64,000 nucleotides of DNA from Motilibacter aurantiacus. Its GTDB lineage: Bacteria; Actinomycetota; Actinomycetes; Motilibacterales; Motilibacteraceae. Shown in pieces: positions 35,775 to 55,032 of the stretch (its first letter is position 1; each line of letters begins with the position of its first letter). Under the pieces are notes generated by a model. It made no database searches. It was not told the origin of the DNA and was given only the letters and a program-made list of their open reading frames with translations. The position numbers and the translations under genes were made by a program. The stretch covers positions 1-64,000 of the forward strand of contig NZ_JAANNO010000012.1 in the NCBI RefSeq assembly GCF_011250645.1, in the 5' to 3' direction.

Positions 35775-36920
35775 TTGTTCGACGAGGGAAGCCTGTGGCG
35801 CTCGCTGCTGGTGCTGGCGACGACCGGGGTGGCCGCGGCGGTCGCCGGCTGGCTGTCCGGCCAGGTCGTGACCCGGGTGCCGCCGCCGCGCTACCGCGGC
35901 TTCGCCCGCCGGGTGCACGAGGCCTGTCACCGGGCATGGGTCTGCACCCTCGTCTCCTTCGCGCTGCTGCAGGCGCTGGATGCCGCACCGCTCCCGGCGG
36001 ACGACGTCCAGCGGGTGGTCCGGCACGCGCTGGTGATCGCGACCATCGCCGCGGTCTCGTGGCTCGTGGTGAAGGTGCTCTTCGTCGCGCAGGACGCGGC
36101 CTTCACCCGGCTGCGGGTCGACGTCACGGACAACCGGCGGGTCCGCAAGATGCGCACCCAGATCCTCATCGTGCGTCGGATCACGGCTGCCGTCGTGACC
36201 GCGGTCGGCATCGGGGCCATCCTGATGTCCTTCGACACCATGCGCACCGTCGGCGCCTCCCTGCTGGCCTCCGCAGGCATCGCGGGCGCGATCGCCGGGT
36301 TCGCCGCCCAGGCCACTCTGGGCAACGTGTTCGCCGGTATCCAGCTCGCCTTCACCGACGCGCTGCGCATCGACGACGTGGTGGTCGTCGAGGGCGAGTG
36401 GGGCCGTATCGAGGAGCTGACGCTGACCTACGTCGTCGTGCACCTGTGGGACGAGCGTCGCCTGGTCCTGCCGACCAGCTGGTTCACCAGCAACCCCTTC
36501 CAGAACTGGACCCGCAAGGAGTCGCGGGTGCTGGGGGCCGTCCAGCTGCACCTGGACTTCGCCACCCCGCTGGAGGAGCTGCGCCGGCACGCCCGCGACG
36601 TCATCGAGGGGTCGCCGTTGTGGGACAGGCGCGACTGGGTCCTGCAGGTGACCGACACGACGGAGACGACGATGGTCGTGCGCGTGCTGGCGTCCGCACA
36701 CGACGCGCCCAGCGCGTTCGACCTTCGGTGCGACATCCGCGAGCAGCTGCTCACCTGGCTCCAGCGCAACCACCCGTACGCGCTCCCTCGCACGCGGGCC
36801 GAGATCGCCCCGACCGCCGGCAGCCCGTTCCTCGTCGCGTACGAGGGCTCGGGCATCGAGAAGGGCATCGAGAAGGAGATGGACGAGGGCACGCCGGGAC
36901 GGGCAAGGTCGGGCGCGTGA
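35775..36920 (+). CDS. MscS-family mechanosensitive channel
   Basis: 381 aa, TTG start at 35775 with AAGGAGG four bases upstream. Three N-terminal spans, then the pore helix region typical of MscS (ASLLASAGIAGAIAGFAAQATLGNVFAGIQLAF), and the beta/alpha cytoplasmic cage (RIDDVVVVEGEWGRIEEL, TWFTSNPFQNWTRKE). Opens under membrane tension to release osmolytes during osmotic downshock. Its last four bases overlap the start of the GH16-like gene. Confidence 0.92.
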   Translation: MFDEGSLWRSLLVLATTGVAAAVAGWLSGQVVTRVPPPRYRGFARRVHEACHRAWVCTLVSFALLQALDAAPLPADDVQRVVRHALVIATIAAVSWLVVKVLFVAQDAAFTRLRVDVTDNRRVRKMRTQILIVRRITAAVVTAVGIGAILMSFDTMRTVGASLLASAGIAGAIAGFAAQATLGNVFAGIQLAFTDALRIDDVVVVEGEWGRIEELTLTYVVVHLWDERRLVLPTSWFTSNPFQNWTRKESRVLGAVQLHLDFATPLEELRRHARDVIEGSPLWDRRDWVLQVTDTTETTMVVRVLASAHDAPSAFDLRCDIREQLLTWLQRNHPYALPRTRAEIAPTAGSPFLVAYEGSGIEKGIEKEMDEGTPGRARSGA

Positions 36921-37699
36921 CCACGCTGCCCCCCGGCCGCTCCCGGCTCGCCTTCGCCGACGAGTTCGATGCCCCGACGCTCGACCGGTCGGTGTGGCTA
37001 CCGCACTACTTGCCCGCCTGGAGCTCGCGGGCGCGGAGCGCCGCGACGTACGAGATCGAGGGCTCCTGCCTGCGGCTGTCGATCCCGCCCGGCCAAAGGG
37101 TGTGGTGCGCCGGGGACCACACGCCGCCGCTGCGCGTCTCGGCAGTCCAGTCCGCGAGCCGGTCCGGGCCCGTCGGAAGCACCCGGGGCCAGCAGCCCTA
37201 CCGCCCGGGGCTCACCGTACGGGAGGAGCAGCCGTCCTTCGTGGGCTGGGCCCCCGACTCCGGGTACGTCGCGATCCGCGCTCGTGGCGTCGTGTCCGCC
37301 CGGTCGATGGTCGCGTTCTGGCTCGTGGGGCTGGAGGATGTCCCGGAGCGCAGCGCCGAGGTGTGTGTCGCCGAGATGTTCGGTCACGCGGTGGTGCCGG
37401 GCCGGTCGACAGCGGTCGGGACGGGGCTGCACGCCTTCCGCGACCCCGAGGTCCGCGAGGACTTCGCCGCCCTCGACCTGCCGCTCGACGTGTCGGAGTT
37501 CCACGTCTACGGCGCAGACCGGACGGACGGGCGCGTCGACTTCTACGTCGACGGCGAACTGGTGCGCACCTGCACCGGCGCGCCGTCCTATCCCATGCAG
37601 TTGATGATCGGCGTGTTCGACTTCCCGGAGCGTTCGACGGGTGACGACGCAGCCGCGGTTCCCGAACTGATCGTGGACTGGGTGCGCGGCTACCTGTAG
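36917..37699 (+). CDS. GH16-like protein with altered catalytic motif
   Basis: 260 aa, GTG start at 36917 overlapping the MscS stop (GTGA). Concanavalin-like fold of GH16: FADEFDAPTLDRSVWLPHY, YEIEGSCLRLSIPPG, FWLVGLED, and the region of the active site at 148-153. The standard ExDxxE is here EVCVAE: the two Glu (148 and 153) are kept, but the Asp is Cys. No signal peptide is seen, which is unusual for a polysaccharide hydrolase. It may be a weak enzyme or a binding protein. Confidence 0.75.
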   Translation: MTTLPPGRSRLAFADEFDAPTLDRSVWLPHYLPAWSSRARSAATYEIEGSCLRLSIPPGQRVWCAGDHTPPLRVSAVQSASRSGPVGSTRGQQPYRPGLTVREEQPSFVGWAPDSGYVAIRARGVVSARSMVAFWLVGLEDVPERSAEVCVAEMFGHAVVPGRSTAVGTGLHAFRDPEVREDFAALDLPLDVSEFHVYGADRTDGRVDFYVDGELVRTCTGAPSYPMQLMIGVFDFPERSTGDDAAAVPELIVDWVRGYL

Positions 37700-38031: not shown

Positions 38032-40710
38032 ATGAGAACCCTGTTCAGGCGCGGAGCTGCCGCGGCCGCCGCGGCGCTCGTCGCGTCGCTGATGCTGGCC
38101 CTGCCCGCGGGCGCCGCACCCCCTTACGCTGTCGTGACCCCCGCCGCTCCCGACGGGTGGCAAGCAGCCAACGTCCGCACCGACGCCTCGGTCGCGATCA
38201 CGACGTCGCAGCCGCGAGGCGCCGCACCCGACGGCCTCGGCTCGCTCGAGCTCACCACGAGCACCGTCACCAGCGGCCAGGACAAGGCCGACTACGCGAA
38301 GTACTGGGGCGTCCTGCCGGGCCGCACACTGGGCGATCTGAGCGCCCTGAGCTACGAGTTCTACCGCGCCTCGAGCAGCACCACCGCCCAGCATCACGCG
38401 CCGGCGTTCCGCCTCGCCTACCGGAATGCCGCCGGGCAGGCCGGCTATCTCATCTGGGAGAACGTCTACAACGGCGGGAGCACGTCCGCGCCCGTTCCGG
38501 TGGACCAATGGCTCGCACGGAACATCCGCAACGGGTATTTCTGGATGCGGACGTTCAACCCGGGCTTCAGCGTGGAGCGCTACGACGTGACGCTCGACCA
38601 GTGGAGGGACGGCGCCTCCTATCCCGGCTCCCACGTCCTGGGGCCCGACACGAGCATCGTCGGTATCGAGGTGGGCGTCGGCTCCGGCTGGGGCGGCTCC
38701 TCGCGAATGTTCGTCGACACCCTGTCGGCCGCTTTCGGCCCCGACGAGGTCTCGGCGAACTTCGAGCCCACCCCGGCCCCGCAGTGCGCCACCACCTGTT
38801 ACGTCGACGCGGTCAACGGCAGCGACGCGAACGGCGGGACCGGCCCGGCCGACGCCAAGAGAACGGTCCAGGCGGCGGTGGACCAGGTGTCCCCCGGCGG
38901 CCGGGTGGTCGTCGCGGCGGGGACCTACCGCGAGCAGGTGACGGTCGCGAAGGACGGCCTGCGCATCAGCGGCGCGGGGCAGGGCAGCACGGTGCTCCAG
39001 GGCACGAGCTGCTCCGGCGCCGGGCTCACCCTGCCGGGCACCCGCAACGGCTTCACGGTGGAGGACCTGTCCGTCGCCGGTTACGACGTGGGTGTCTCGC
39101 TCGGCGTCACGGGTGACGCGCAGAGCAACGTGCTCATCGAGGACGTCACCGCGACCGGCAACTGCAGGCACGGGCTCTTCCAGCAGGCCGGCACGGTGAC
39201 GGGCATGACGGTCAACCGGGTGACGGCCTCGAACAACGGGACACCCGGGTCGGGTGGGCGCGGCCTCTGGGTCATCAACGGGGTCAAGACCGACCTGACG
39301 GTCACCGGCGGCACGTTCAGCGGCAATGCGCTCGTCGGCATCGACATCAGCGACGGCAACGTCACCGGCCTCACCCTGCAGGCGAACACGGTGGAGAACA
39401 ACGGCGACGCCGGCATCAGCGTCCTCGGGGCGAAGGGGCCCGCGGCCAACCTGGTCGACGGCAACACAATCCGCAACAACGGCCGGTACGGCATCGAGCT
39501 CAAGTCGTCGAACGGGAACGGGAACGCCGGCGGCGCGGGCAGCCTCGTGATCTCCCGCAACGTCGTCGAGCGGACCGTGCCCGCGACCGACGCCCGTGAC
39601 TCGGCCGGCATCGCCGTGGTCCGGCGCTCCGGGCAACCGGCGTACAACCAGGACCAGCCGGCCGGCGCGGTCGTCGCGGAGAACGAGGTGCGGGGCTACA
39701 CGCGGCGGGCAACCGGGGCCACCGGCGACGGCTTCGGCATCGTCGTGGAGGGCCTGTCCAACACGGTCCGCAACAACACCCTGTCCGGCAACGACGTGGG
39801 CGTCCAGGTGCAGGGCGGCAACACGGCCAACGTCCAGAGCACGCCGTTCTTCGACCGGGGGGACGCAGCTCAGGGCGACGCCACCGTGAGGCACAACTCC
39901 ATCGCCGGGAACGGCACCGGGCTGCGGGCCGCCGGGGCGCTGGCGGTCGTGACGCTGAACGCGGAGAACGACTGGTGGGGCTCGAACACCGGGCCCAGCC
40001 CGACCGGTTCGGGGGACAGCGTGGAAGGCTTCGCCGACTACGACCCCTGGCTCTGCACCGGGACCGACACCTCGCCGGCCCCCGGCTTCCAGCCCGACAT
40101 CCAGGCCTCCCCCTGCACTCCTCCGGGAGGCACCCTCGTGGTCACCAAGTACAACGACAAGAACCGGAGCGGGGCGCGCGACGCAGGCGAGGTTGCCCTG
40201 GCCGGCTGGACGATCACCGTCAGCCGGAACAGCCTGCCCGTGGCCGGCGGGACGACCGACCAGGACGGCAACGTCACCTTCAGCGCCCTGCCGCCCGGCA
40301 CCTACACGGTCTGCGAGGAGGCGCAGAGCGGCTGGCAGAACACCGACCCGAGCAACGGCAGCGGGTGCAAGACCACGACGGTCACCAGCAGCGCGGTGAC
40401 GAACGTGCTGCTCGGCAACGCCACGCCGTTCACCGTCGAGGCGCGCGACATCGGGGTCGGCGCCAACCGCCCCTTCGGCGCCGCGGTCGCCGCCGTGTCC
40501 GCGCCCGGCATCCCGAACTCCCAGTTGACGGCCACGATCAACTGGGGTGACGGGCCGACGACCGCCGGGTCCATCGCCGGGTCGAACGGCTCGCCCGGGG
40601 TGTTCGGGTTCCACTCCTACGCGGCTCCCGGGACCTACACCACGACCGTGACCGTCACCGGCCCCGGCGGGGTGGTCGTGACGGACACCGGCACCATCGT
40701 CGTGAGCTGA
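38032..40710 (+). CDS. secreted right-handed beta-helix protein with SdrB-like and PKD-like domains
   Basis: 892 aa from ATG 38032. Signal peptide about 1-28 (AAAAALVASLMLALPAGA). A jelly-roll-like N-terminal domain (about 30-250) is followed by a DUF1565-type start (CYVDAVNGSDANGGTG) and about nine rungs of parallel beta-helix (NTVENNGDAGISVLG, NTIRNNGRYGIELKS, NTLSGNDVGVQVQGG). Then an SdrB-like segment (NDKNRSGARDAGEVALAGWTI with GTYTVCEE) and a C-terminal PKD-like domain (GDGPTT, YAAPGTYTTTVTVTG). No sorting signal is seen. Likely a secreted surface adhesin or a polysaccharide lyase/binder; no lyase residues can be assigned. It fits the neighbouring polysaccharide island. Confidence 0.85.
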   Translation: MRTLFRRGAAAAAAALVASLMLALPAGAAPPYAVVTPAAPDGWQAANVRTDASVAITTSQPRGAAPDGLGSLELTTSTVTSGQDKADYAKYWGVLPGRTLGDLSALSYEFYRASSSTTAQHHAPAFRLAYRNAAGQAGYLIWENVYNGGSTSAPVPVDQWLARNIRNGYFWMRTFNPGFSVERYDVTLDQWRDGASYPGSHVLGPDTSIVGIEVGVGSGWGGSSRMFVDTLSAAFGPDEVSANFEPTPAPQCATTCYVDAVNGSDANGGTGPADAKRTVQAAVDQVSPGGRVVVAAGTYREQVTVAKDGLRISGAGQGSTVLQGTSCSGAGLTLPGTRNGFTVEDLSVAGYDVGVSLGVTGDAQSNVLIEDVTATGNCRHGLFQQAGTVTGMTVNRVTASNNGTPGSGGRGLWVINGVKTDLTVTGGTFSGNALVGIDISDGNVTGLTLQANTVENNGDAGISVLGAKGPAANLVDGNTIRNNGRYGIELKSSNGNGNAGGAGSLVISRNVVERTVPATDARDSAGIAVVRRSGQPAYNQDQPAGAVVAENEVRGYTRRATGATGDGFGIVVEGLSNTVRNNTLSGNDVGVQVQGGNTANVQSTPFFDRGDAAQGDATVRHNSIAGNGTGLRAAGALAVVTLNAENDWWGSNTGPSPTGSGDSVEGFADYDPWLCTGTDTSPAPGFQPDIQASPCTPPGGTLVVTKYNDKNRSGARDAGEVALAGWTITVSRNSLPVAGGTTDQDGNVTFSALPPGTYTVCEEAQSGWQNTDPSNGSGCKTTTVTSSAVTNVLLGNATPFTVEARDIGVGANRPFGAAVAAVSAPGIPNSQLTATINWGDGPTTAGSIAGSNGSPGVFGFHSYAAPGTYTTTVTVTGPGGVVVTDTGTIVVS

Positions 40711-40770: not shown

Positions 40771-42855
40771 CTACCGGCCGAGGGAGTCGCCACCGACCCC
40801 GAAGTGGCGCTTCCACGACGCCCGGGTGCCGCTCACGCCCGACAGCGGAAGGGCGCCGTTCGCCGTGCTCTCGACGTAGGCGTGATAGGCCACCACGCGC
40901 TCGCGCACGATCTTCGCGAGCTGGTCCGCGAAGGCCCAGTCGTCGCCGGAGCCGTCGCTGCGCGCGCCGTCGGTGACTGCCCACTCGGAGATGCTGAGCG
41001 GCTTCCCGTGGGCCTCGGCGAAGGCGAGAAGCTGGCCGAGCCCGCCGGCCAGGCCGAGCTGGTACGTGAACCGGGCCGGCTGCGCGCGGCCGACCGCGGC
41101 CGGGGCGAAGTCGTACTGCGCGATGCCGATGACGTCGACGACGTCGTCGCCCGGGTAGTACTTGTCGAAGGCGATGGGCCGCCAGTTGCCGTTGACCGTC
41201 CAGTCGAAGGTGAAGTCGGCCCCGGGGACGGATCGCATGGCCTTCACGACCCGCGCCCAGTAGGCCTTCCAGTTGGCGAAGTCAGCGTCGGTGGCCCCGA
41301 TGTTGTCGAAGGCCCAGTCGCCGTTCGCCTTGGCCCCCAGCCGGACGACGGTCGAGCCGAGGCCGCGGGCCACGAGGTTGCGGGCCAGCGCCCGGGCACG
41401 CTCGTCGTACTCCCCGGCCGCGCCGCGGGCCCGCCAGTCGGCCGGGAGCCCCTTGGGCGCGAGCGACTGGGTGAGGACGAGCGTCCGGGCGCCCCTGCCG
41501 TCGCGCACCCACTGCGGCCACTGGTACTCCGGGTAGGCGGCGACGGGCATGTGAATCATCCACGGGTCCTCCCAGTCGGCCCAGGACGTGGCGGCGTCGT
41601 TGTGGACCACCGCGCAGTCGAGCTGCTTGCCGACCAGCCAGCCGAACTCCTTGAGCTTCTGCAGGCTGTTCTGCGCGCTGACGCAGGGGGTCTTGGAGTC
41701 GCCGGCGGTGACTGTGCCCCCCTGGCCCCCCTGGCCCCCCTGGTCCTGCTGGCCGGGGGTGGGGGTGGGCGTGGGGGTGGGCGCCGCAGGGCCCGAGCCG
41801 GCCAGCGAGTCTCCGGTCGCGCCGAAGTGACGCTTCCAGGAGGCCCGCGACCCGGGAAGGTCCTGTAGCCGGATCGTGCCCGAGTTCTCGGCGTTGAAGT
41901 ACGAGTGGTAGCGCACGTGGTTCTCGCGGACCACCTGGGCGATGCGGTCGGCGAAGTACCAGTCGTCGTTCGCCCCCATGGGGTCGACCGAGCTGTCGAG
42001 CAGCCCCCACTCGGGGATGCTCACCGGCTTGCCCCGCTCACGGGCGAAGCGCAGGAGGGCTCCCAGGCCGTACGGCTGGTCACGGAGCGCCTCCCAGCGC
42101 AGCGGCTGCTTGACGCCGACGTCGGGGTTGACCGAGTCGTACTGGTCGATGCCGATGATGTCGACGACATCGTCGCCGGGGTAGTACTTCTCGAACGGCA
42201 CGGGCCGGTAGCCCGCGTTCACCGTCCAGTCGAACTCGAACGCGGCGCCGGGGACGGCGTCCATGATCCGCGTCGCGCGGGCCCAGAAGGAACGCCACTG
42301 CGCGTACTCGGCCTCCGCGTTCCCGACGCTGTCGAAGTACCAGTCCCCGTTGGCCTCGTGGCCGAGCCGGATGATGGCCTTGCCCATGCCCCCGGCGACC
42401 AGCTTCTCGGCCAGGGTGCGGAAGTGCTCGTCGTACTCCCCGGAGGCGCCCCGGGCGCGCCAGTCGCCCTCGATGCCGACGGGCACGAGGGCCTGCGTGA
42501 CGACGATCGTGCGCTGTGCGGCAGGGTCCTGCACCCAGGCCGGCCAGGCGAACTGCTTCTGCTCGGTCGGCATGTGCAGGAACCAGGGGTCGGACCACTC
42601 GGCCCAGGTCGTCGCCTCGTCGTTGAAGACCATGGAGCAGTCGAGCTGCTTGCCGACCAGCCAGCCGAACTGCTTGAGCTGGTCGAGGTCGTTGGAGGTG
42701 TACGCGCAGACGGTCTTGTCGTTGCGCACCTGGGTGGCCGTCCGGTCGGACGCCCCGGCGGACGTCGAGGCCAGAGCCGGCAGGGAGGCAGCGCTCACGC
42801 CCAGCGCGGCGCACAGGGCGCCGACGCGGAGGGCTCGAAGGGCTGACAGGCGCAT
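40771..42855 (-). CDS. secreted protein with two GH26-like domains, second one degenerate
   Basis: 694 aa from ATG 42855, with a signal peptide of about 30 residues. Two homologous (beta/alpha)8-type domains: about 45-350 and 385-694, joined by a PT-repeat and QGG-repeat linker. Domain 1 keeps the expected acid/base pair His166-Glu167 (GHEANGDW) and the nucleophile Glu282 (PEWG), as in GH26-like mannanases/glucanases. In domain 2 the pair is Ala508-Lys509 (GAKANGDW) and Asp237 is replaced by Ala579, while Glu624 (SEWA) remains, so the second domain is probably inactive and may bind sugar. Both domains begin with a matching C-x22-C and end in SWKRHFG. Divergent from the related gene at 43058. 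Confidence 0.85.
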   Translation of the reverse strand: MRLSALRALRVGALCAALGVSAASLPALASTSAGASDRTATQVRNDKTVCAYTSNDLDQLKQFGWLVGKQLDCSMVFNDEATTWAEWSDPWFLHMPTEQKQFAWPAWVQDPAAQRTIVVTQALVPVGIEGDWRARGASGEYDEHFRTLAEKLVAGGMGKAIIRLGHEANGDWYFDSVGNAEAEYAQWRSFWARATRIMDAVPGAAFEFDWTVNAGYRPVPFEKYYPGDDVVDIIGIDQYDSVNPDVGVKQPLRWEALRDQPYGLGALLRFARERGKPVSIPEWGLLDSSVDPMGANDDWYFADRIAQVVRENHVRYHSYFNAENSGTIRLQDLPGSRASWKRHFGATGDSLAGSGPAAPTPTPTPTPGQQDQGGQGGQGGTVTAGDSKTPCVSAQNSLQKLKEFGWLVGKQLDCAVVHNDAATSWADWEDPWMIHMPVAAYPEYQWPQWVRDGRGARTLVLTQSLAPKGLPADWRARGAAGEYDERARALARNLVARGLGSTVVRLGAKANGDWAFDNIGATDADFANWKAYWARVVKAMRSVPGADFTFDWTVNGNWRPIAFDKYYPGDDVVDVIGIAQYDFAPAAVGRAQPARFTYQLGLAGGLGQLLAFAEAHGKPLSISEWAVTDGARSDGSGDDWAFADQLAKIVRERVVAYHAYVESTANGALPLSGVSGTRASWKRHFGVGGDSLGR
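41717..41782 (-). repeat. tandem repeats in the glycosidase linker
   Basis: Three perfect 9-base copies of CCCCCCTGG (plus strand, 41717-41743) encode QGGQGGQGG, followed by a GGGGGTGGG-type run (41755-41782) encoding Pro-Thr repeats. They make the flexible linker between the two domains. Lengths in multiples of three would change linker length without a frameshift. Confidence 0.8.
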
Positions 42856-44877: not shown

Positions 44878-46194
44878 TCATGCCGGCCCCCATTCGGCCC
44901 GGCGCCGCCGCAGCACCCAGGCGGCGCCGAGGCCGAACAGCACCACGTTGAGCACCTCGCCGGCGAGCCAGGCCCGGCCTACCTCCGCGAGGGAGTCGGC
45001 GGACGTCAGCACGAGGCCGATGACGAGGGCGGCGTTGGCCAGGTTGACGAACACGCTGAAGAAGACGCGCCGGTCGAGCAGCAACACGGTGCCGAACACG
45101 TAGTTGGCGCCGACGAGCGCCGCGGAGACGATCAGGTAGCGCAGCAGCGTGCTCGCCCCGGCGTCGTAGCTCGAGCCGAAGAGCGACAGCAGCAGCGGGG
45201 CGCCGGCGTAGGCCACGCCGAGCACCGGGAGCAGCACGGCGGCGAGCAGGAGGGAGCCCTTGCGCAGCAGCGCGAGCCGCCCGGCCTCGGCGTACGAGCC
45301 CTCCGCGAGCATCGAGCGGCTGACCATGTTGCCGAGCAGGAAGAGCAGATTGGCGACCTGGTACGCGACGTACCAGAAGCTGGCTTCGGCCGTTCCCAAC
45401 GTTCCGACGACGAGGAGCGGCACCACCATCCCGGGGATGCTCCCGGTCATCGCCGAGGCGTACGCGCCGGCGGAGAAGCGCCAGAGCGCGTCCAGCGCGC
45501 CGCGGTCCATGCGCAGCCGGGGCCGGTAGCCGTCCCGCCGGCACAGCGTGAGGACCAGGAGGGAGGCGCCGATCAGCCACGCCGCCGTCTGGGCGCAGTA
45601 CGCGGCGAGCGCTCCGAGCGGCAGGAACGCCACGAGCGCCCCCAGCCGGACGGCGCTGCTGACGCAGGTGACCGCGACGACCCGGCCGCTCGCCCGGTCG
45701 GCGACGAAGACCGCCTCGACCACGCTGAGCAGGCCCGAGGCGAGCGTCCCGAGGAGCAGCGCGGGGACCACCGCGGCCCCGCCCTCGGCTCGCAGCTCGG
45801 CCGTCAGCGGGCTGAGCGCGAGGACCAGCGGGACGGCGACCAGGGCCATGCCGGAGGCGGTCAGGCAGGTGTCGAGCATGGCTGCCCGGTCGCGTGCGGT
45901 CGGCAGCATGCGGACGACGGAGTAGCCGAGCCCGAGCCCGGCGACGTTGACCGCCAGGGCCGTGGCCGAGAGCGCGGAGGTGGAGACGCCGAGCTGCGCG
46001 GGCGGGTAGAGCCGCGCGGCGATGAGCGTGAAGCAGAAGCCGGCGGCGGCGCCGAGCAGCTGGTTCAGCACCAGCAGGAAGGACCCGCGGACTAGCCCGT
46101 CGGACAGCAGCCGCCGCGCGGCGCGGACGGGGCCCCGTCGCGGTGCGGGGACCGAGGCCGCACCCGCGGGGACCTCCCGCTGCGAGACGGTCAT
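44878..46194 (-). CDS. Wzx-like polysaccharide flippase
   Basis: 438 aa from ATG 46194, about 12-14 membrane helices. Typical MATE-like/Wzx pattern: N-terminal GSFLLVLNQLLGAAAGFCFTLIAARLYPPAQLG, and later GNMVSRSMLAEGSYAE and LLRYLIVSAALVGANYVFGT. It would move lipid-linked repeat units across the membrane. Last gene of the operon; its start overlaps the acetyltransferase stop by four bases. Ends eight bases from the convergent glycosidase gene. Confidence 0.85.
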   Translation of the reverse strand: MTVSQREVPAGAASVPAPRRGPVRAARRLLSDGLVRGSFLLVLNQLLGAAAGFCFTLIAARLYPPAQLGVSTSALSATALAVNVAGLGLGYSVVRMLPTARDRAAMLDTCLTASGMALVAVPLVLALSPLTAELRAEGGAAVVPALLLGTLASGLLSVVEAVFVADRASGRVVAVTCVSSAVRLGALVAFLPLGALAAYCAQTAAWLIGASLLVLTLCRRDGYRPRLRMDRGALDALWRFSAGAYASAMTGSIPGMVVPLLVVGTLGTAEASFWYVAYQVANLLFLLGNMVSRSMLAEGSYAEAGRLALLRKGSLLLAAVLLPVLGVAYAGAPLLLSLFGSSYDAGASTLLRYLIVSAALVGANYVFGTVLLLDRRVFFSVFVNLANAALVIGLVLTSADSLAEVGRAWLAGEVLNVVLFGLGAAWVLRRRRAEWGPA

Positions 46195-46766
46195 CGGCGC
46201 CGTCCCCTGGCCTCGATGGTGCGGACGACGACGGCGGGATTGCCGGCGACGACGACCCAGGGCGGGACCTCGCCGCGGACGACCGAGCCGGCTGCGACCA
46301 CGCTGCCCTCGCCGATGGCCGTGCCGGGCAGCACCACCACACCGCGGGCGAGCCAAACGTCGTCGCCGATCGTCACCGGCGCGGTGCGCACTCCCGCGCC
46401 CGGCTCGATCTCGTGGAAGTTCGTGTCGTAGACGGCGCAGAGGTCCCCGATGCGGACCCGCGAGCCGATGGTCACCGCCGACTCGCAGTGCACGACCGTC
46501 CCCTGGTTCAGGAACACCTCATCGCCGAAGCTGATGACCCCCGAGGGGCCGCAGCCGATGCCCACCGGGAACTGCGCGCCACCGATGCTGAGCCGCCGCC
46601 CGGCCACGATGCGCCCGCGGTTGGAGATCCGCGGCCGCGGGCCGGTGACCGACGGGTACGCGCCGTGGGCCACCTTGTGCAGGCGCAGCAGCGCCTCTGC
46701 GCGGGCCACTCGTACGCCCGCCGCTCCGGCCTGCGCAGCCGCCCGGAGCGCGGAGCCGCCGCTCAC
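46191..46766 (-). CDS. left-handed beta-helix (hexapeptide) acyltransferase
   Basis: 191 aa, GTG start at 46766. Hexapeptide-repeat rungs are clear (VISFGDEVFLNQGTVVHCESAVTIGSRVRIGDLCAVYDT, then VTIGDDVWLARGVVVLPGTAIGEGSVVAAGSVVRGEVPPWVVVAGNPAVVV), with the His of the CoA-acetyl site probably in NFHEIE. WbbJ/Maa-type sugar O-acetyltransferases have this form. It probably decorates the exported polymer. Overlaps genes on both sides by four bases. Confidence 0.9.
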   Translation of the reverse strand: MSGGSALRAAAQAGAAGVRVARAEALLRLHKVAHGAYPSVTGPRPRISNRGRIVAGRRLSIGGAQFPVGIGCGPSGVISFGDEVFLNQGTVVHCESAVTIGSRVRIGDLCAVYDTNFHEIEPGAGVRTAPVTIGDDVWLARGVVVLPGTAIGEGSVVAAGSVVRGEVPPWVVVAGNPAVVVRTIEARGRRR

Positions 46767-47896
46767 GCCCCCACCGACCCGGCCGGCTGCAGAGCGCGCG
46801 GCTCGGCCCCTGCCAGCTCGCCGAGGAACAGCTGGGTGGCACGCGCCGCGTCGTCCCAGCCCCAGCTCATGACACCGGCGTGCCCTGCCGCACCGCGGGC
46901 GGCCAGCTCCTCGGACCGGGCGGCCAGGGCTCGCTCCAGGGCGGCCCCGAGCCCCCCGGGCGAATAGCGGAAGCAGGCCTCGTCGGGAAGGTCCGCCAGC
47001 GCGGCGAGCCGGGGCACGACGAGCGGCCGGCCCATCGTGAGGGCGAGCCGGGCCGAGCCGCTCGTGGTGACGGACCGGAAGGGCAGGACGACCGCGTCAG
47101 CGGCGCCGAAGTACGCCGCGACCTGCCCGTCGGGCACGTGGCCGAGGCGGAGCTCGACACGGCCGGCGCAGCGCGCCGCGGCCCGGTGGAGCCGCCGTGC
47201 GAGGCCGCTGTCGGAGCACCGGCCGGCCACCACGACGCGGGCGCCGGTGCGATCGAGCAGGCCCGCGGGCAGCTCGGCGACCGTGTCCAGCAGGTCCTCG
47301 ACGCCCTTGTAGTCCTGCACCGCCCCGAAGAAGAGCAGCACGCGGCCGGCGGGCGGGATCCCGAGCAGGGCTCGCGCACGCTCGCGCGGCGGGACCGGGC
47401 CGTACACCCCCGGATAGGGGCCGTGCGGGATCTCGGCGACCGGAGGCAGCCGCGGCACGAGCTCGGCGAGGCGGCGGGTGGTCTCGCCACCGTGCACGAT
47501 CACTCCGGATGCGCGGCGCAGCAGGGCCCGGCGAGCGCGGACGTCGTCGGCGAACACGCGCTCGTGCGGCAGCACGTTGTGCGCCGTCCACACGACTCGC
47601 ACCCCGCAGAGGCGGGCGGTCCCGAGGAGGACGACGAACCACGCCTCGGCGAGCCGACGCAGCCAGGGCAGACGGGCCCTTCCGGGAAGCACGAAACGGT
47701 AGACCCAGTGCAGGTGAAGGACGCGCGTCCCGCGGGCGCGCTCGAGGAGCAGCTGGATCGGCAGCAGGGCCAGGTTGAGCGTGTGGCTGCGCGTCGCCTC
47801 CCCCAGGTAGCCGACCGTCGCGCCGCGTGCCCGCAGCTCGGCGTAGAGCAGCTCCTGGTACGGGTTCGGGTCCCGCGGGTAGGCGGTGACCCTCAT
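46763..47896 (-). CDS. glycosyltransferase family 4-like (GT-B)
   Basis: 377 aa from ATG 47896. GT-B fold with the N-terminal VLHLHWVYRFVLPG and VWTAHNVLPHERVF, then a donor-binding half with LLFFGAVQDYKGVEDLLD and FRSVTTSGSARLALTMGRPLVVP, typical of retaining GT4 enzymes. Probably cytoplasmic, adding a sugar to the lipid-linked oligosaccharide. Overlaps the GT2 gene upstream and the acetyltransferase gene downstream by four bases each. Confidence 0.87.
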   Translation of the reverse strand: MRVTAYPRDPNPYQELLYAELRARGATVGYLGEATRSHTLNLALLPIQLLLERARGTRVLHLHWVYRFVLPGRARLPWLRRLAEAWFVVLLGTARLCGVRVVWTAHNVLPHERVFADDVRARRALLRRASGVIVHGGETTRRLAELVPRLPPVAEIPHGPYPGVYGPVPPRERARALLGIPPAGRVLLFFGAVQDYKGVEDLLDTVAELPAGLLDRTGARVVVAGRCSDSGLARRLHRAAARCAGRVELRLGHVPDGQVAAYFGAADAVVLPFRSVTTSGSARLALTMGRPLVVPRLAALADLPDEACFRYSPGGLGAALERALAARSEELAARGAAGHAGVMSWGWDDAARATQLFLGELAGAEPRALQPAGSVGA

Positions 47897-48789
47897 GCGC
47901 GGGCCTTCGCCACGTGGCTGAGCGCGCCGGCGCCGTAGCAGAGATGGTCCAGCAGGGTGCGCAGCGGCTGGTGCCGCCGGTTGCGCCACAGCGGCAGGAG
48001 GAGCAGCAGCGGGTACGGCCGCAGGCGCAGGGTCAGGGGCAGGCCGAGCAGGAACACCGGGTACGCCACGAGGATCGGGTCCTGCCGGGCCATCGTCGCC
48101 CACCGCTGCCGGTTCCGGTGCTTGAGGTAGAGCCGGGCGCGGCCGGCGCCGTAGTACCAGGCGCGCTTGGCCTGCCGACGGGCGCCGCCCCACTCGTGGT
48201 CGAGCCGCGCGCCGGCGACCCGGCGGATGCGGTAGCCGGCGTCGTTCAGGCGCCAGGTGAAGTCGCTGTCGGAGCAGTAGTCGAAGGCCTCGTCGAAGCC
48301 CGCGACCGCGTCGAAGGCGGCACGGGTGAAGGCCAGGTTGATCGTGGCGCACTCGGCGACGTAGTCCTCCGTCACCGTGTGCGCGTCGTAGACGCTCGGC
48401 CCGCCGAGGCTGCCGGTCACCCCGCACGTGACCGACTCCTCCCCGCGCACGATCGGCGCGACCAGCTCCTCGAGCCACCCCTCGTGCGGCCGGCAGCCGG
48501 CATCGGTGAAGACGACGACGTCGCCGGAGGCCACGCGTACGCCGCGGTTGCGCTGCTCCGGGATCGTGATGCGCTTGCCCGGCACCGGGGCGAAGTCGAC
48601 CCACCGGACGTCGGGGTGCGAGCGACGGATGTCGTCCAACCGCCCCTGCGACGCGTCGACCACGACGAGCTCCACGACCGGGTCGACCGGCAGCGCAGCC
48701 GCGGCCGCCGTGCCCGCGTCGGCGAGCGCCGTGAGGGTGCCGTCGAGCGCCCGCTCGTTCTTGCTGATGACGACGACCGAGACACGCAT
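47893..48789 (-). CDS. glycosyltransferase family 2 with C-terminal membrane segment
   Basis: 298 aa from ATG 48789. GT-A fold: VSVVVISKNERALDGTL, VELVVVDAS, VVFTDAGCRPHEGW (in place of the DXD), and FDEAFDYCSDSDFTWRLNDAG with the ED-type acid. A hydrophobic stretch (PVFLLGLPLTLRLRPYPLLLLLPLW) near residue 250-275 could anchor it to the membrane. Start overlaps the polymer-like gene's last base. Confidence 0.87.
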   Translation of the reverse strand: MRVSVVVISKNERALDGTLTALADAGTAAAAALPVDPVVELVVVDASQGRLDDIRRSHPDVRWVDFAPVPGKRITIPEQRNRGVRVASGDVVVFTDAGCRPHEGWLEELVAPIVRGEESVTCGVTGSLGGPSVYDAHTVTEDYVAECATINLAFTRAAFDAVAGFDEAFDYCSDSDFTWRLNDAGYRIRRVAGARLDHEWGGARRQAKRAWYYGAGRARLYLKHRNRQRWATMARQDPILVAYPVFLLGLPLTLRLRPYPLLLLLPLWRNRRHQPLRTLLDHLCYGAGALSHVAKARA

Positions 48790-51074
48790 CAGCGGAAGAC
48801 CTCCGAGGATCCGGTGGAGTACACGACCGCCTTGTAGTGGTCGAGGAAGGCGGCGGGGAACTCGTAGGTCGCCTGGAAGCGGCCCGCGCCTCCGCGGGCC
48901 CGCCCGTCGACCACGTTGCGGGACGCCGCGAAGACGTACGCCCGCTGGTCCAGCGCGCCCGGCGCGAGGTCGGGGAAGATCCCGTCCTGTCGGCCCGAGT
49001 GGGCGAGCAGCGTCAGCTGGCCGTAGCGGTCGGTGTAGACGGGGGCGTCGGCCTTGACGTTGCGCCCCAACCAGCGCGCCGCCGCCACGTCCTGTGGGCT
49101 GGTGTCGAAGCGCTCGACGTGCTCGCCGCGGTCGGACAGGTTGCCCGGCGGGGTGCCGCCGACGAGCAGCGGGCGCAGCCCGGACGCGTCCGTGAAGGCC
49201 AGCGTGAGCGCGGCTGCAGCCACGAGCGTGCCGAGCGGGGCCGTGGCGGCGCGCCGCTTCCGGGCGACGGCCGACAGACGCTCCGCGAGCAGCCCGAGGC
49301 CGATCACGAGCACCACCGACGTCTGCAGCGCGAGCCGCTCGGGGTTGTAGGCCACGGACACGGACCCGCTCAGCCGGGTGACGGCGGTCAACGCCAGCAG
49401 GACGAGGGCGAGAAGGGCGAGCTCGCGGTCGCGGCGCCCGCGCAGGAGGGTGACCGCCAGGTGGAGGGTGCCCACCACCAGCCCGAGGTTGAACAGCTGG
49501 CGGAGCAGCGTGACCGCCGCCGCCACCGGGCCGGCCAGGCCGGGAGCCGCACCGGCCTCCACCGGCGCCGCGGAGGCGACCGCAGGGAAGCGCGCCTGCT
49601 CGCTGGGGCCGTACGGCAGCAGCCACGGCCGCGACGAGTACCTGCGGTCGACTTCAGCGAAGTACTCGGCAGGCGTGGTCGTCTCGGTGACGTTGCCGGA
49701 CAGCCACGTCGACAGCGCGGAGCCCCCGGAGCGGTTGGGCAGCAGCTGCACCCCGTCCTGCGACAGCGCCGACGCGAACGACGTCACGTTCGTCGTGGAC
49801 TCGGTGACCTCCGAGTTCCACACGAAGGTGAACCCCGCCATCCAGAGGACGAGAACCGCGCTGAAGACCGGCTTGGACGTCCGCGGCCGCCGGGCGAGCA
49901 GCCGCCCCAGCTCGGCGAGCACGGCCACCGCGCACAGGGCGAGCACGGTGACGTACGCGCTGGAGTAGTGCGACAGCACGAGCCCCGACCCCAGCACCAG
50001 CAGCGCGCCCTGCACGCCGGCGCGCGGCCCCGTCGCCAGGAAGGCGGTCACCAGCAGGGCGACGAAGAGCAGCAGCCCGGCCTCCTGCCGGGCCAGGGCC
50101 GGCATCTGCGGCACCAGCGTGCCCTGCAGCACCACCAGGGCGCCGCACACGTACGCCGTGCGCGGGCGCAGCCACCGGCAGGCCAGGGCGTACACGCCCA
50201 CCGGCAGCAGTGCGCCGAGCGCCGGGTAGAGGACGGTGAAGACGTGGACGCCGTCGACCCCGCTGAGCCGGGCCAGCGCGACCGGGACGGCCGTGATGCT
50301 GAGCATCGCCGCGTACGCGTCGCCGGGGACGACCAGCCATCGGGACGCGGCGAGGGTCCGGGAGAAGACCCCGAACTCCTGCTGGATGTCGAAGCCGTAG
50401 AGGCCCTCTCCGTGCAGCGAGTAGGACCAGAGCAGGGTCAGGAAGGCGGCGTAGAGCACGACGGGGCGCAGCGCCTCCGGCGCGGGGCGCAGCAGCGGAG
50501 TCGCGACGACGAGCAGGCCGGCGGCCACGACCGCGACGCCGAGGGCGGCCGGGCCCCGCCCGCTCCCCAGCAGCTGGGCGCCCACTGCGGCGAGGAGCGG
50601 GACGGCCAGAGCCGCCCAGGCCCAGGAGACGCGGTCGGGCACGCGGGGCCGGGGCAGCTCGGCGTCGCGCAGCAGGCACACCGCCGCGAGAGCAAGGAGG
50701 GCCAGGTCCAGGGCGACGAGCAACGGCACGGTGCGCAGCGGTCGGCCCTGCCCCAGGGCGCCGAGCAGGGCGTTCTCGGCCAGCACGACCAGCGTCAGCA
50801 CCGCCAGGCTCGCGGCCGGGACGACGACCGCCCGGGCCGCCCCACCGACCTCCACGCGGAGGGCACGGAGCAGGAGCGCGCCCGGCACCACGAGCAGGAA
50901 CGCGAGCGCCAGCACCGTGGCCGACGGGTTGGCCCTGGCCGCGACGGCGAGGTGGAAGGCGGCCCCGGCCGCCGCCGGCCAGGCCAGGTCGGCCGGGGTG
51001 ACCCGCCGGACGACGACCGGGCGGTCGTCGACGAGGGCGCCCTGACGCGGGATCCGGACGGGCGTGACGGTCAC
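48789..51074 (-). CDS. large polytopic membrane protein (DUF2206-like), polysaccharide polymerase candidate
   Basis: 761 aa, GTG start at 51074, with about 14 membrane spans and a large exported C-terminal region (about 640-761). A conserved-looking GFDIQQEFGVFSRTL loop sits in the middle, with DGVHVFTVLYPALGALLPVGVYAL after it. This layout is like DUF2206 and GT-C-type or O-antigen polymerase/ligase proteins. No Wzy signature was firmly recognised. It is the best candidate for polymerase or lipid-linked sugar transferase in the operon. Confidence 0.65.
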   Translation of the reverse strand: MTVTPVRIPRQGALVDDRPVVVRRVTPADLAWPAAAGAAFHLAVAARANPSATVLALAFLLVVPGALLLRALRVEVGGAARAVVVPAASLAVLTLVVLAENALLGALGQGRPLRTVPLLVALDLALLALAAVCLLRDAELPRPRVPDRVSWAWAALAVPLLAAVGAQLLGSGRGPAALGVAVVAAGLLVVATPLLRPAPEALRPVVLYAAFLTLLWSYSLHGEGLYGFDIQQEFGVFSRTLAASRWLVVPGDAYAAMLSITAVPVALARLSGVDGVHVFTVLYPALGALLPVGVYALACRWLRPRTAYVCGALVVLQGTLVPQMPALARQEAGLLLFVALLVTAFLATGPRAGVQGALLVLGSGLVLSHYSSAYVTVLALCAVAVLAELGRLLARRPRTSKPVFSAVLVLWMAGFTFVWNSEVTESTTNVTSFASALSQDGVQLLPNRSGGSALSTWLSGNVTETTTPAEYFAEVDRRYSSRPWLLPYGPSEQARFPAVASAAPVEAGAAPGLAGPVAAAVTLLRQLFNLGLVVGTLHLAVTLLRGRRDRELALLALVLLALTAVTRLSGSVSVAYNPERLALQTSVVLVIGLGLLAERLSAVARKRRAATAPLGTLVAAAALTLAFTDASGLRPLLVGGTPPGNLSDRGEHVERFDTSPQDVAAARWLGRNVKADAPVYTDRYGQLTLLAHSGRQDGIFPDLAPGALDQRAYVFAASRNVVDGRARGGAGRFQATYEFPAAFLDHYKAVVYSTGSSEVFR

Positions 51075-52189
51075 GCAGCGCTCCGCTCCGCGGCGGGCCG
51101 CGCAGCGCCAGCAGCGGCCCCTCGGCGCGGCGCCGCGAAGCGAGCGCGCTCGGACAGCAGGCCGGAGGCGAGGCCGGCGTCGCTGGCGGCCTCCTGCAGG
51201 GCCTGGACGTAGGGGTAGAGCAGGAGCTCGGGCCGCCGCTCGCGCACTGCCCGGACCGGCCAGGTGGCGAAGAGCGCCTGCGGCAGGGCGAGCGCCCCCA
51301 CCGCGAGCGCCGGCCGGCGCAGCAGCGCCGCGGCGGTGACGCCGGCGAGCACGGCGACCGGCAGCGGGTAGGCCGTGGGCGAGAGGCCCTCGTGCTTGAA
51401 GTACATCCGCGCGTTGCCCCGGCCGTAGGCACGGCTGCGGCGCAGCGTGTCCGCGAGCCCCGGCTCGAAGTCGTGCTCGACGAGCGCGTCGGGGACGAAC
51501 AGAGGGGGCACCTCGCCGCCCAGGACCTGTCGACGGCAGAAGTCCTCTTCCTCCCCGCCGAAGCGGAACCTCTCGTCGAACCCGCCGAGGCGCTCGAGCA
51601 GCTCGACACGGAAGGCCATGCTGGCGCCGACGACGGAGCTGACCGGGCGTCGGCCGCTGCGACGTTCCGGAAAGGCGCTTCGCTGCAGGTACAGCCCGAG
51701 ACGGCGGGCCAGCCCGTCGCCACCCTCGAGCAAGGAGGCCTCGAGGGGGCCCAGCGGGTTGTTCTCGCGCAGGTAGCGCAGCACGAAGGTGTCGGTACGG
51801 CTCCCGCGGACGGCCCCGCCGCAGGCCACGAGGAGGGGGTCGGCGTCGAGCGCGCCCAGCAGCCGCTCCACCCAGTCAGGTCGCGGGCGGCAGTCGTCGT
51901 CGGTGTACGCCACCACCGGTGCCGCGGCTGCGCGCCAGCCGGTGTTGCGGGCGGCGGCCAGCCCGCGGTTGCGCGCGTGTCGGACCACGCGGACGCCCGC
52001 AGCCGCCGCCACCGCGGCGGTGTCGTCGGCGGACCCGTCGTCCACGACGAGGACCTCGATCTCGTTGCGCACGGTCTGCGCGGCGAGAGCCTGCAGGACG
52101 TGGGGCAGGGTGTCGGCGCCGTTGTAGCAGCAGACGACGACCGTCGCCCGGGGCGTTCCTCCCCTCACCCCTGTCCCTTCGGCGGTCAC
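51071..52189 (-). CDS. glycosyltransferase family 2 with C-terminal membrane segments
   Basis: 372 aa, GTG start at 52189. GT-A fold motifs: ATVVVCCYNGADTLPHVLQAL, VLVVDDGSADDT, VVAYTDDDCRPRPDWVERL (TDDD metal site) and RFGGEEEDFCRR. Several hydrophobic stretches follow at about 285-345, so it may be membrane bound. Overlaps the neighbours at both ends by four bases. Confidence 0.88.
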   Translation of the reverse strand: MTAEGTGVRGGTPRATVVVCCYNGADTLPHVLQALAAQTVRNEIEVLVVDDGSADDTAAVAAAAGVRVVRHARNRGLAAARNTGWRAAAAPVVAYTDDDCRPRPDWVERLLGALDADPLLVACGGAVRGSRTDTFVLRYLRENNPLGPLEASLLEGGDGLARRLGLYLQRSAFPERRSGRRPVSSVVGASMAFRVELLERLGGFDERFRFGGEEEDFCRRQVLGGEVPPLFVPDALVEHDFEPGLADTLRRSRAYGRGNARMYFKHEGLSPTAYPLPVAVLAGVTAAALLRRPALAVGALALPQALFATWPVRAVRERRPELLLYPYVQALQEAASDAGLASGLLSERARFAAPRRGAAAGAARPAAERSAA

Positions 52190-53352
52190 GTCGTGGCCCC
52201 CGTCCGCTCGGCCGGCCGGTCGAGCGTGGCCAGCACCTGCTGCACGAGGCGGCGCGGCGACGCGGCGTCGACGATCTCGGCGTACCGCTCCTGCCAGCCG
52301 CTGCCCGACGCCGCCTGCAGCCCGTCGATGACGCCGTCGGCGACATCGGCCGGCGCGAGCGAGGCGAACGTCGGGAGGACGCCGGAGAACACCTCGCCGA
52401 GCCCGCCCACGGACGTCGCCAGCACCGGGCGGCCGGCGGCGAGCGCCAGCCCGGCCACGCCGCTCTGCTCGGTGGCCGTGTAGGGCAGGACCACCAGGTC
52501 CGCGGCGGCGAACCAGCCGGCGACCTCCGGGTCGGGGACGCGGCCCACGAACCGGACGGCCGCTCCCAGGCCGAGCTCGTCGACGCGCGCGCGCACCGCG
52601 TCGAGGTAGTCGCGGTCGGCCTGCTCGAACCGGCCGAACGCCGGCGGCCGGGGGCGGACGTCCCCGGCCACGACGAGGCGCAGCCCGGAGACCGCGGCCG
52701 GGTCGCGGTCGCGCAGCACCGCCAGCCCCTCCACCAGCTCGCGCAGCCCCTTCTCCACGTGCACGTAGCCGAAGAGCAGCAGCACGCGGCTGCTGCCCAG
52801 AGCGTGCCGCTCGCGCAGCTCGCGCCCCGACACCGATCCAGCGGGCAGCGGGTACACGGGGTGCGGGTGGACGAGGACCCGGTCGGCGGGGATGCCCACC
52901 TGGCCGTGCGCCGTCGCGGCAGCGGCCGCGGTGTGCACGTGAGTGCGGTCGGTGGCCCGCGCCACGAGCCGGTAGTACGCCCGCCCCGGACGTCCCAGCC
53001 GCGCCAGGTCGCGGGTCACCTCGTGGTGCGTGACCACGACGTCCGCGCCGTGACGGCGCAGCGCCGCGGTCAGCAGCCACAGGGGCAGCAGGCCCGGGCC
53101 GTAGGTCGCGACGGAGTGCTGCACGTGGACGGCGTCCGGCCGCCACGACCGCGCCGACCGGTACGCGGCCAGCCAGCGCCGCGGCGACCAGCCCACCTGC
53201 CCCAGCACGGGCACGTCGCGCCCGGGGCGTGCGGTGGGCGTCAGCGCGGCGACCTCCACGCCCTCCTCCGCGTACGCCCGGCCGAGCCGCGCGGCGTAGT
53301 CGGCGATACCGTCGGGCGCCGGAGGCAGCGGCGCGACGAGGACCAGCCTCAC
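52186..53352 (-). CDS. glycosyltransferase family 4 (GT-B)
   Basis: 388 aa, GTG start at 53352. N-terminal VRLVLVAPLPPAPDGIADYAARL, VVVTHHEVTRDLARLG in the acceptor half, and LLFGYVHVEKGLRELVEGL with VLPYTATEQSGVAGLALAAGRPVLATSVGG in the donor half, as in GT4 enzymes. Adjacent to a second GT4 gene; probably extends the same oligosaccharide. Confidence 0.88.
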   Translation of the reverse strand: MRLVLVAPLPPAPDGIADYAARLGRAYAEEGVEVAALTPTARPGRDVPVLGQVGWSPRRWLAAYRSARSWRPDAVHVQHSVATYGPGLLPLWLLTAALRRHGADVVVTHHEVTRDLARLGRPGRAYYRLVARATDRTHVHTAAAAATAHGQVGIPADRVLVHPHPVYPLPAGSVSGRELRERHALGSSRVLLLFGYVHVEKGLRELVEGLAVLRDRDPAAVSGLRLVVAGDVRPRPPAFGRFEQADRDYLDAVRARVDELGLGAAVRFVGRVPDPEVAGWFAAADLVVLPYTATEQSGVAGLALAAGRPVLATSVGGLGEVFSGVLPTFASLAPADVADGVIDGLQAASGSGWQERYAEIVDAASPRRLVQQVLATLDRPAERTGATT

Positions 53353-54548
53353 GGTCGGTACACCTCCGCCAGCCCGGCGGCCAGGGCGTCCCAGTCGAAG
53401 CTCGCGGCCCGCTCGGCGGCTCCGCGGCGCCTCGCGGGCAGCTCGGCGAGCACGCGCTCGATCGCGTCCGCCAGCTCCTCCGGGCGGGCGGGGCACACCT
53501 CGCCGTCCACACCGGGCCGGATGAGCGCCCGGGCGAAGTTGTCCTCGGCGTCGCTCGTCACCACGGGGGTGCCGCAGGCGAGCGCCTCGAGCGCGACCAT
53601 CCCGAACCCCTCCCGCTCGCTGGGGAACGCAAGTACGGACGTGCTCTTCATGAGTGCGAGCACGTCCCCCCGGCGGTCGAGCGCCCCGCGGAAGCGGACG
53701 CTCGCCGCGAGCCCGAGCCGGTGGGCCAGGCCGCGCAGCCGGGTCTCCTCCGGGCCCTGGCCGATGACGTCGAGGCTCAGCCGGACGCCGCGCCCGTGCA
53801 GGACGGACAGCGCCTCGAGGAGCACGTGGACGTTCTTGTGCGCGAGCAGCCGGCCGACGCAGAGCAGATCGGCGGCATCGACTGCCGGCTCCACGCGGTC
53901 GATCTCCGCTCGGTCGACGCCGTTCGGCACGACCACGACGTGCGCCCGGCCCCTGCTCACCTCGGCCAGCCGTTCCGCCGTGCCGCTGGACGCGGCCACG
54001 ATCACGTCGGGCAGGGCGACCGCACGGCGCTCGCAAAACGAGGCGACGCTCCCGAGCGGGCCGAGGTAGCGCCGCCAGTAGGCCTGGCCCCAGACCTCGT
54101 GCCAGGTGACGACGAAGGGGCGCCGCTTGATCGTCGCGACCACCCGCAGCGGGAAGAGGTGCAGGAACGGGATCGCGTCGGCCTCGAGCACGTCGAACCG
54201 CTCGCGCAGCATCCGCAGGCAGGAGACGGCGAAGACCACGCCCTGGCGGATGGAGCGGCGGGAGCCGGCGTACAGCGGGACGTAGGGCGCCATGGCGTGC
54301 AGGACCACGTCACCCTCGCGGTGCTCCGTCGGCCCGTCCCACCAACGCATCGTGAAGACGTGCGCCTCGACGCCGTGCCGGCTCAGCCTTGACGTCAGCG
54401 CGTGCAGCCGCTCCTCCTTGCCGCCCTTGTGGAACGGATGGACGGCGTCGGACACGACAGCGACGCGCACCCTCGTAGTTGTCCTGGTAGTTGTCCTCGT
54501 CCGGGCCGCCGACGCGGACGCCTCGGGCGCAGGTGCCTCAACCGCCAC
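53349..54548 (-). CDS. glycosyltransferase family 4 (GT-B)
   Basis: 399 aa, GTG start at 54548; the first 26 residues are a Thr/Arg-rich leader, and a later GTG (VRVAVVSDA) could be the true start. Core GT4 features: VAVVSDAVHPFHKGGKEERL, VVTWHEVWGQAYWR, VVVPNGVDRAEID, CVGRLLAHKNVHVLLEAL and FPSEREGFGMVALEALACGTPVV. The best GT4 of the set, retaining, using a nucleotide sugar. Overlaps the small membrane gene by 11 bases. Confidence 0.88.
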   Translation of the reverse strand: MAVEAPAPEASASAARTRTTTRTTTRVRVAVVSDAVHPFHKGGKEERLHALTSRLSRHGVEAHVFTMRWWDGPTEHREGDVVLHAMAPYVPLYAGSRRSIRQGVVFAVSCLRMLRERFDVLEADAIPFLHLFPLRVVATIKRRPFVVTWHEVWGQAYWRRYLGPLGSVASFCERRAVALPDVIVAASSGTAERLAEVSRGRAHVVVVPNGVDRAEIDRVEPAVDAADLLCVGRLLAHKNVHVLLEALSVLHGRGVRLSLDVIGQGPEETRLRGLAHRLGLAASVRFRGALDRRGDVLALMKSTSVLAFPSEREGFGMVALEALACGTPVVTSDAEDNFARALIRPGVDGEVCPARPEELADAIERVLAELPARRRGAAERAASFDWDALAAGLAEVYRP

Positions 54549-55032
54549 AGGTGGCGCTCCCTCCCGTGCTGGCCGCCGGGTCCGTGGCCGGCAGCACCCA
54601 ATAGCTGATCCGCGAGCCGGGCCCGTCGTCGGGCGTCAGCTCGACCTGCACCCGGTTGCGCTGGGCGCAGTCGGCGACGTGCACCCGCACCGGCACCACG
54701 GCCGACCCTTCGGCCGCCAGCTCCAGGCGTCCGGAGGCGAGGGGACGGGCGCCCGCCTCCGGGCCGACGTACACCTGCCAGGTGAAGCCCCGCGCCTTGT
54801 CCGAGACGTTGTGGACGTCGAAGGCGAACCGGGCGCTGCCCGTGGCGGCCACGGACTCGGGGAGGAGTTCAGCATCGCTGAATGACAGTTCGGCGAACGC
54901 TTCTTCGGCTCCCTTCAGCCCGGCCGACCGCAGGAGCCCTTGCGCTGCGGGCATCTGCAGCGCACTCGGTATTGCCAGCGCGAGCACGGCAACCGCGGGG
55001 ACGACCACCCGTCCGGGCAGGGTGGGCCTCAC
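54538..55032 (-). CDS. membrane-anchored or secreted beta-sandwich protein
   Basis: 164 aa, GTG start at 55032. One N-terminal hydrophobic segment (VVVPAVAVLALAIPSALQ) acts as signal or anchor, followed by a beta-rich domain with FAFDVHNVSDKARGFTWQVYVGP and VVPVRVHVADCAQRNRVQVELTPDDGPGSRISYWVLPA, like a CARDB or DUF1616-type Ig fold. No enzyme residues. It sits between two glycosyltransferase genes and may hold or chaperone the polymer or an export component. Confidence 0.6.
   Translation of the reverse strand: MRPTLPGRVVVPAVAVLALAIPSALQMPAAQGLLRSAGLKGAEEAFAELSFSDAELLPESVAATGSARFAFDVHNVSDKARGFTWQVYVGPEAGARPLASGRLELAAEGSAVVPVRVHVADCAQRNRVQVELTPDDGPGSRISYWVLPATDPAASTGGSATCGG

Follow-up and report, generated by a model that had tools for sequence, protein, structure and literature searches.

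What does a glycosidase gain from carrying a second copy of its own fold in which the acid/base residue appears to be missing? The question is raised by a gene in a 64,000-nucleotide stretch of Motilibacter aurantiacus DNA (hereafter the window), which encodes P0001, a putatively secreted protein with two GH26 domains. A preliminary description made from the sequence had proposed tandem GH26-like domains with an inactivated second copy, and suggested that the second copy binds sugar. It mentioned neither the GH26 domain of the adjacent gene nor the polysaccharide cluster that points to the likely substrate. The observation has been confirmed, and the interpretation is partly supported: mapping on a homologue, the predicted fold and the relatives compared all speak for tandem GH26 domains with a catalytically impaired second copy, while sugar binding is plausible. 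Dead GH26 proteins are already known. Neither the tandem arrangement nor the link with the exopolysaccharide cluster described below was found in the literature searched. With an intact barrel and a dead copy in one chain, P0001 is well suited to testing whether a glycosidase that has lost its activity turns into a binding module.

Layout of P0001 and its locus

P0001 consists of an N-terminal signal peptide, a first GH26 domain (D1), a PT/GQ-rich linker and a second GH26 domain (D2), in that order (Table 1). D1 and D2 are 53-54% identical. Both score above the curated Pfam GH26 cut-off of 20.2 bits (28.8 for D1 and 22.7 for D2), as does a third domain, D3, in the divergently transcribed neighbour. 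The Pfam GH26 profile found no further matches in the genome beyond these three. An NCBIfam search returned nothing useful, and a scan for promoters and terminators found none.

Table 1. Features of the P0001 locus, with positions in the window.
Feature	Position	Strand	Basis
GH16-like protein	36917..37699	+	Pfam Glyco_hydro_16, 23.4 bits; linked to the cluster only by lying near it
Secreted right-handed beta-helix protein with SdrD-B domain	38032..40710	+	Pfam; linked to the cluster only by lying near it
Gene for tandem GH26 protein P0001 (694 aa)	40771..42855	-	Open frame; Pfam PF02156, E 1.5e-12
P0001 D2, GH26 domain (aa 385-694)	40774..41703	-	Residues; clade alignment; AlphaFold2 model (mean pLDDT 92.6, pTM 0.92); CtLic26A Z 26.3, rmsd 2.9, 264 aligned
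D2 nucleophile E624, retained	40984-40986	-	
D2 A579	41119-41121	-	
D2 A508-K509 at acid/base site	41329-41334	-	
P0001 linker, PT/GQ-rich (aa 351-384)	41704..41805	-	Sequence
P0001 D1, GH26 domain (aa 45-350)	41806..42723	-	Residues; CtLic26A mapping; AlphaFold2 model (mean pLDDT 89.5, pTM 0.89); CtLic26A Z 24.8, rmsd 3.3, 270 aligned
D1 nucleophile E282	42010-42012	-	
D1 D237	42145-42147	-	
D1 acid/base E167	42355-42357	-	
P0001 signal peptide (about aa 1-30)	42766..42855	-	Read from the sequence (MRLSALRALRVGALCAALGVSAASLPALA), without a predictor
Divergent neighbour (603 aa): signal peptide, intact GH26 domain D3, PA-rich linker, C-terminal segment	43058..44869	+	Pfam
Wzx-type polysaccharide flippase	44878..46194	-	Pfam Polysacc_synt_3
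Hexapeptide-repeat transferase	46191..46766	-	Pfam
GT4-type glycosyltransferase	46763..47896	-	Pfam; relatives L078, L079, L082
GT2-type glycosyltransferase	47893..48789	-	Pfam; relatives L078, L079, L082
DUF2206-like multi-pass membrane protein, possible polymerase (inferred)	48789..51074	-	Pfam, 35.5 bits against a cut-off of 35.6; relatives in same clusters
GT2-type glycosyltransferase	51071..52189	-	Pfam
GT4-type glycosyltransferase	52186..53352	-	Pfam
GT4-like glycosyltransferase	53349..54548	-	Relatives L078, L082, L112, L113
GT2-type glycosyltransferase	55029..55985	-	Pfam

The active site of D2

GH26 belongs to CAZy clan GH-A. The closest solved fold to both D1 and D2 is that of CtLic26A, a GH26 lichenase of Clostridium thermocellum (PDB 2BV9), whose solved chain is a single GH26 domain with only about 17-20% identity to either. 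Matches to other clan GH-A families have lower Z scores and were put down to the common barrel. Both domains of P0001 are modelled as GH26 barrels, and D2, predicted with confidence to be one, has kept the fold.

The catalytic residues were located by alignment to CtLic26A with a family profile (HMM). The glutamate of the HE motif (E167 in D1, where D2 has K509) falls on residue 109 of the CtLic26A chain, and the glutamate of the PEWG motif (E282 in D1, E624 in D2) on residue 222. In that enzyme residue 109 is the acid/base and residue 222 the nucleophile (Taylor et al. 2005). D1 has glutamate at both positions, which are those of CtLic26A. D2 by this alignment lacks the acid/base glutamate, having K509 there, and keeps the nucleophile E624. 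In addition A579 replaces a conserved aspartate (D237 in D1). Because the HE and PEWG glutamates fall on known catalytic residues of CtLic26A, the alternative that the catalytic residues of the family lie elsewhere and are kept in both domains does not hold. D2 has probably lost catalytic activity. All of the residues named in the preliminary description (H166, E167 and E282 in D1; A508, K509, A579 and E624 in D2) are correct. One of them has been dropped as a sign of inactivation. Position 166 is variable, with Y or F in relatives that carry both glutamates, and since it is not invariant the change from H to A alone would mean little.

How unusual is this change? A comparison set of 85 distinct GH26-like domains was drawn from the fetched loci (95 frames). 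The catalytic pair is E/E in 81 of the 85; the exceptions are D2 (K/E), L075 (D/K), L097 (E/R) and one gap, which makes D2 the sole domain with lysine at the acid/base position. D2 retains 60 of the 69 columns that are invariant in the seven other members of its clade. Its nine departures, in D1 numbering, are Y52S, E167K, Y216W, D237A, W254F, P281S, G284A, L285V and I305L. Five of these lie at most four residues from one of the three catalytic positions (E, D and E; p = 0.026, hypergeometric), nearness being scored as a window along the sequence, whereas 2 of the 30 departures in other clade members fall within the same window. The active-site change in D2 is not put down to chance, because E/E is so prevalent and because the departures cluster near catalytic residues. 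Of the cleft motif, D2 keeps a large part (R, N, W, FDWTVN, YPGDD and the nucleophile), together with several conserved aromatic positions, two of them swapped aromatic for aromatic.

Origin of the tandem

D1, D2 and D3 form a clade (support 100/100) with proteins from two genomes of another class (G464 and G833), two actinobacterial MAG proteins (L082 and L083) and a phage-contig protein (L101/L031). Within it D1 pairs with D2 (support 100/99), so the tree indicates that the tandem stems from a duplication more recent than the split from D3. There is no sign that D2 has since decayed faster. Its branch length (0.51) is like those of the intact D1 (0.39) and D3 (0.47), and pairwise omega is effectively equal for D1-D3 (0.65) and D2-D3 (0.64), values used only for comparison between pairs, as Nei-Gojobori dS is distorted by the extreme codon composition (GC3 about 0.96). 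These similarities in the sequences argue against decay.

So far the tandem form has been seen in a single genome. Among the 95 frames P0001 alone carries a pair of GH26 domains (the two frames of this kind are copies of the same gene), and no relative was found in the four other genomes of the host's family. The relatives recovered by tblastn came from a contig scan with the wider alignment; queries with D1, D2 and D3 alone gave none. No match was found in phage GenBank records. Plasmid matches were Streptomyces glycosyl hydrolases with query coverage of at most 70% and were set aside. The phage relative itself (L031, 5881-7197, identical to L101) lies on IMG/VR contig 3300014501_000025, where only a few genes separate it from one that matches capsid families. 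It is 42-43% identical and keeps both catalytic glutamates. It could be a depolymerase against the polysaccharide of the cluster next to P0001.

The adjoining polysaccharide cluster

Positions 44878-55985 encode a Wzx flippase and glycosyltransferases recognised by Pfam, as in a Wzx/Wzy-dependent exopolysaccharide cluster. The sole candidate for the Wzy polymerase is the DUF2206-like membrane protein, whose match lies just under the Pfam cut-off. Elsewhere in the locus, the C-terminal segment of the D3 protein has weak Ig-like/CarboxypepD_reg matches. The usual catalytic motif of GH16 is not evident in the GH16-like protein (AEMFGH); this too may be a relative of the glycosidases whose active site has changed.

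All four clade loci with enough flank (the window, G464, G833 and the actinomycete MAG L082) adjoin the same DUF2206/glycosyltransferase/Wzx cluster, and its gene order is largely the same in G464, G833 and L082. The L083 and G881 loci are cut by contig ends. In contrast, such a cluster is absent from all 20 of the regions compared around actinobacterial GH26-like genes outside the clade (4/4 vs 0/20, p about 1e-4), where the queries came from the cluster in the window and its relatives and would miss unrelated flippases. Matches to the GH26 clade occur in three genomes, and matches to the DUF2206 protein in only seven of the genomes searched, including all three. G923 has the cluster genes and no GH26 nearby. 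In this clade, then, GH26 domains go together with a single conserved polysaccharide cluster across two classes of the phylum, and a further relative lies on a phage contig. Therefore, the substrate can be sought directly.

What D1, D2 and D3 may do

There is precedent for a glycosidase encoded with the machinery whose product it processes. The wpsE gene is the GH26 gene of wps-1, a Wzx/Wzy cluster of Actinoplanes missouriensis, and its deletion gives partly abnormal sporangia, according to a 2026 study (PMC13390465). Its authors note that Wzx/Wzy clusters encoding a GH26 enzyme had until then gone uncharacterised (PMC13390465). WpsE resembles the window locus in being encoded inside a Wzx/Wzy-type exopolysaccharide cluster. 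It differs from P0001, in a comparison made by description, in having one GH26 domain (residues 38-320), with no tandem or dead copy mentioned in the text consulted (PMC13390465). The PelA hydrolase of the Pel cluster acts on its own polymer (PMC9894940), which is what is proposed here for D1 and D3. Because their active sites are complete, and given the PelA and wpsE precedents, D1 and D3 are most simply seen as endo-glycosidases for the polymer made next door. The PelA hydrolase differs from them in glycosidase family and export pathway.

A picture of the whole can be put together from these elements. P0001 would be a secreted exopolysaccharide-processing enzyme built of two GH26 barrels. 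With complete active-site residues and a conserved gene order, D1 and D3 would be retaining endo-glycosidases whose target is the polymer that the adjacent DUF2206/GT/Wzx cluster makes and exports. D2, arising by duplication within the lineage, would have lost the acid/base (Glu to Lys) and the conserved Asp while retaining its fold, its nucleophile and much of the cleft motif. It would now be non-catalytic, holding D1 on this polymer in the manner of a carbohydrate-binding module. The chance that this is right as a whole falls just short of even. A neighbouring gene is no proof of substrate, and the tandem form comes from a single genome.

Sugar binding by D2 is plausible, and the retained fold, nucleophile and aromatic positions fit with a ligand. 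Still, the nearest precedent calls for caution. GH26B of Segatella copri, the best studied of the dead GH26 proteins that were found, was speculated to be a binding protein, yet neither mannans nor xyloglucan nor manno-oligosaccharides were bound when offered (PMC12704710). Like D2, it belongs to a secreted GH26 protein, has had catalytic residues replaced and has active GH26 enzymes encoded next to it. Unlike D2, it is free-standing, has lost both catalytic residues and belongs to a glucomannan utilisation locus (PMC12704710).

What if D2 binds no specific sugar and is instead a structural or regulatory domain, for example a spacer, a dimer contact or a decoy? The S. copri result would suit this, as would the swap of charge in the active site, where K509 is expected to face E624 and could close the cleft. 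However, so much of the cleft motif has been retained that such a role seems unlikely, if by no means far-fetched. A duplicated domain might also simply have drifted after losing its function, and D2 would then be a relic. This agrees with the loss of active-site residues and with the restriction of the tandem to one genome, but a relic would hardly be expected to have an intact frame, the coding GC pattern, a branch length and omega like those of intact copies and so many of the invariant residues. We consider it improbable.

Could D2 still be an enzyme? Some retaining glycosidases without an acid/base still work by means of another proton donor or an activated substrate, and D2 does have its nucleophile. 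However, lysine for glutamate together with loss of the conserved aspartate makes ordinary hydrolysis unlikely, and both glutamates persist in nearly all of the relatives; very little probability remains for an active D2. The last alternative concerns the substrate. Known GH26 enzymes act mostly on beta-glucans or mannans, and two other secreted or polysaccharide-related proteins are encoded nearby (36917..37699 and 38032..40710). Perhaps the GH26 proteins digest foreign polymers of this kind and the neighbouring cluster is unrelated. The cluster adjoins the clade in four distant loci and is missing from the 20 regions compared around other actinobacterial GH26-like genes, which makes this highly improbable as well.

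Related changes in other GH26-like proteins

Changes that are the mirror image of that in D2 occur in two other actinobacterial proteins. In L075 (from G594) the nucleophile is replaced by lysine (GWDADLPG...IAKWG), and in L097 by arginine (HEANGDW...VSRWG). In all three domains a base replaces the lost carboxylate and an acid stays at the other position. From K509 in D2 and the basic residues at the nucleophile position of L075 and L097, one could speculate that the GH26 barrel has repeatedly given rise to glycan-handling pseudoenzymes, each time with a base for one carboxylate opposite the other, and that D2 is a home-made binding module for the organism's own exopolysaccharide. This broader idea is tentative and we rate it as doubtful.

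Two further arrangements are of note. An Opitutaceae MAG (L087, 9647-12979) has two adjacent GH26 genes, duplicated but not fused. A viral contig (L102, 7566-9137, IMG/VR contig 3300010052_000153) encodes a GH26 domain with an additional segment on its C-terminal side.
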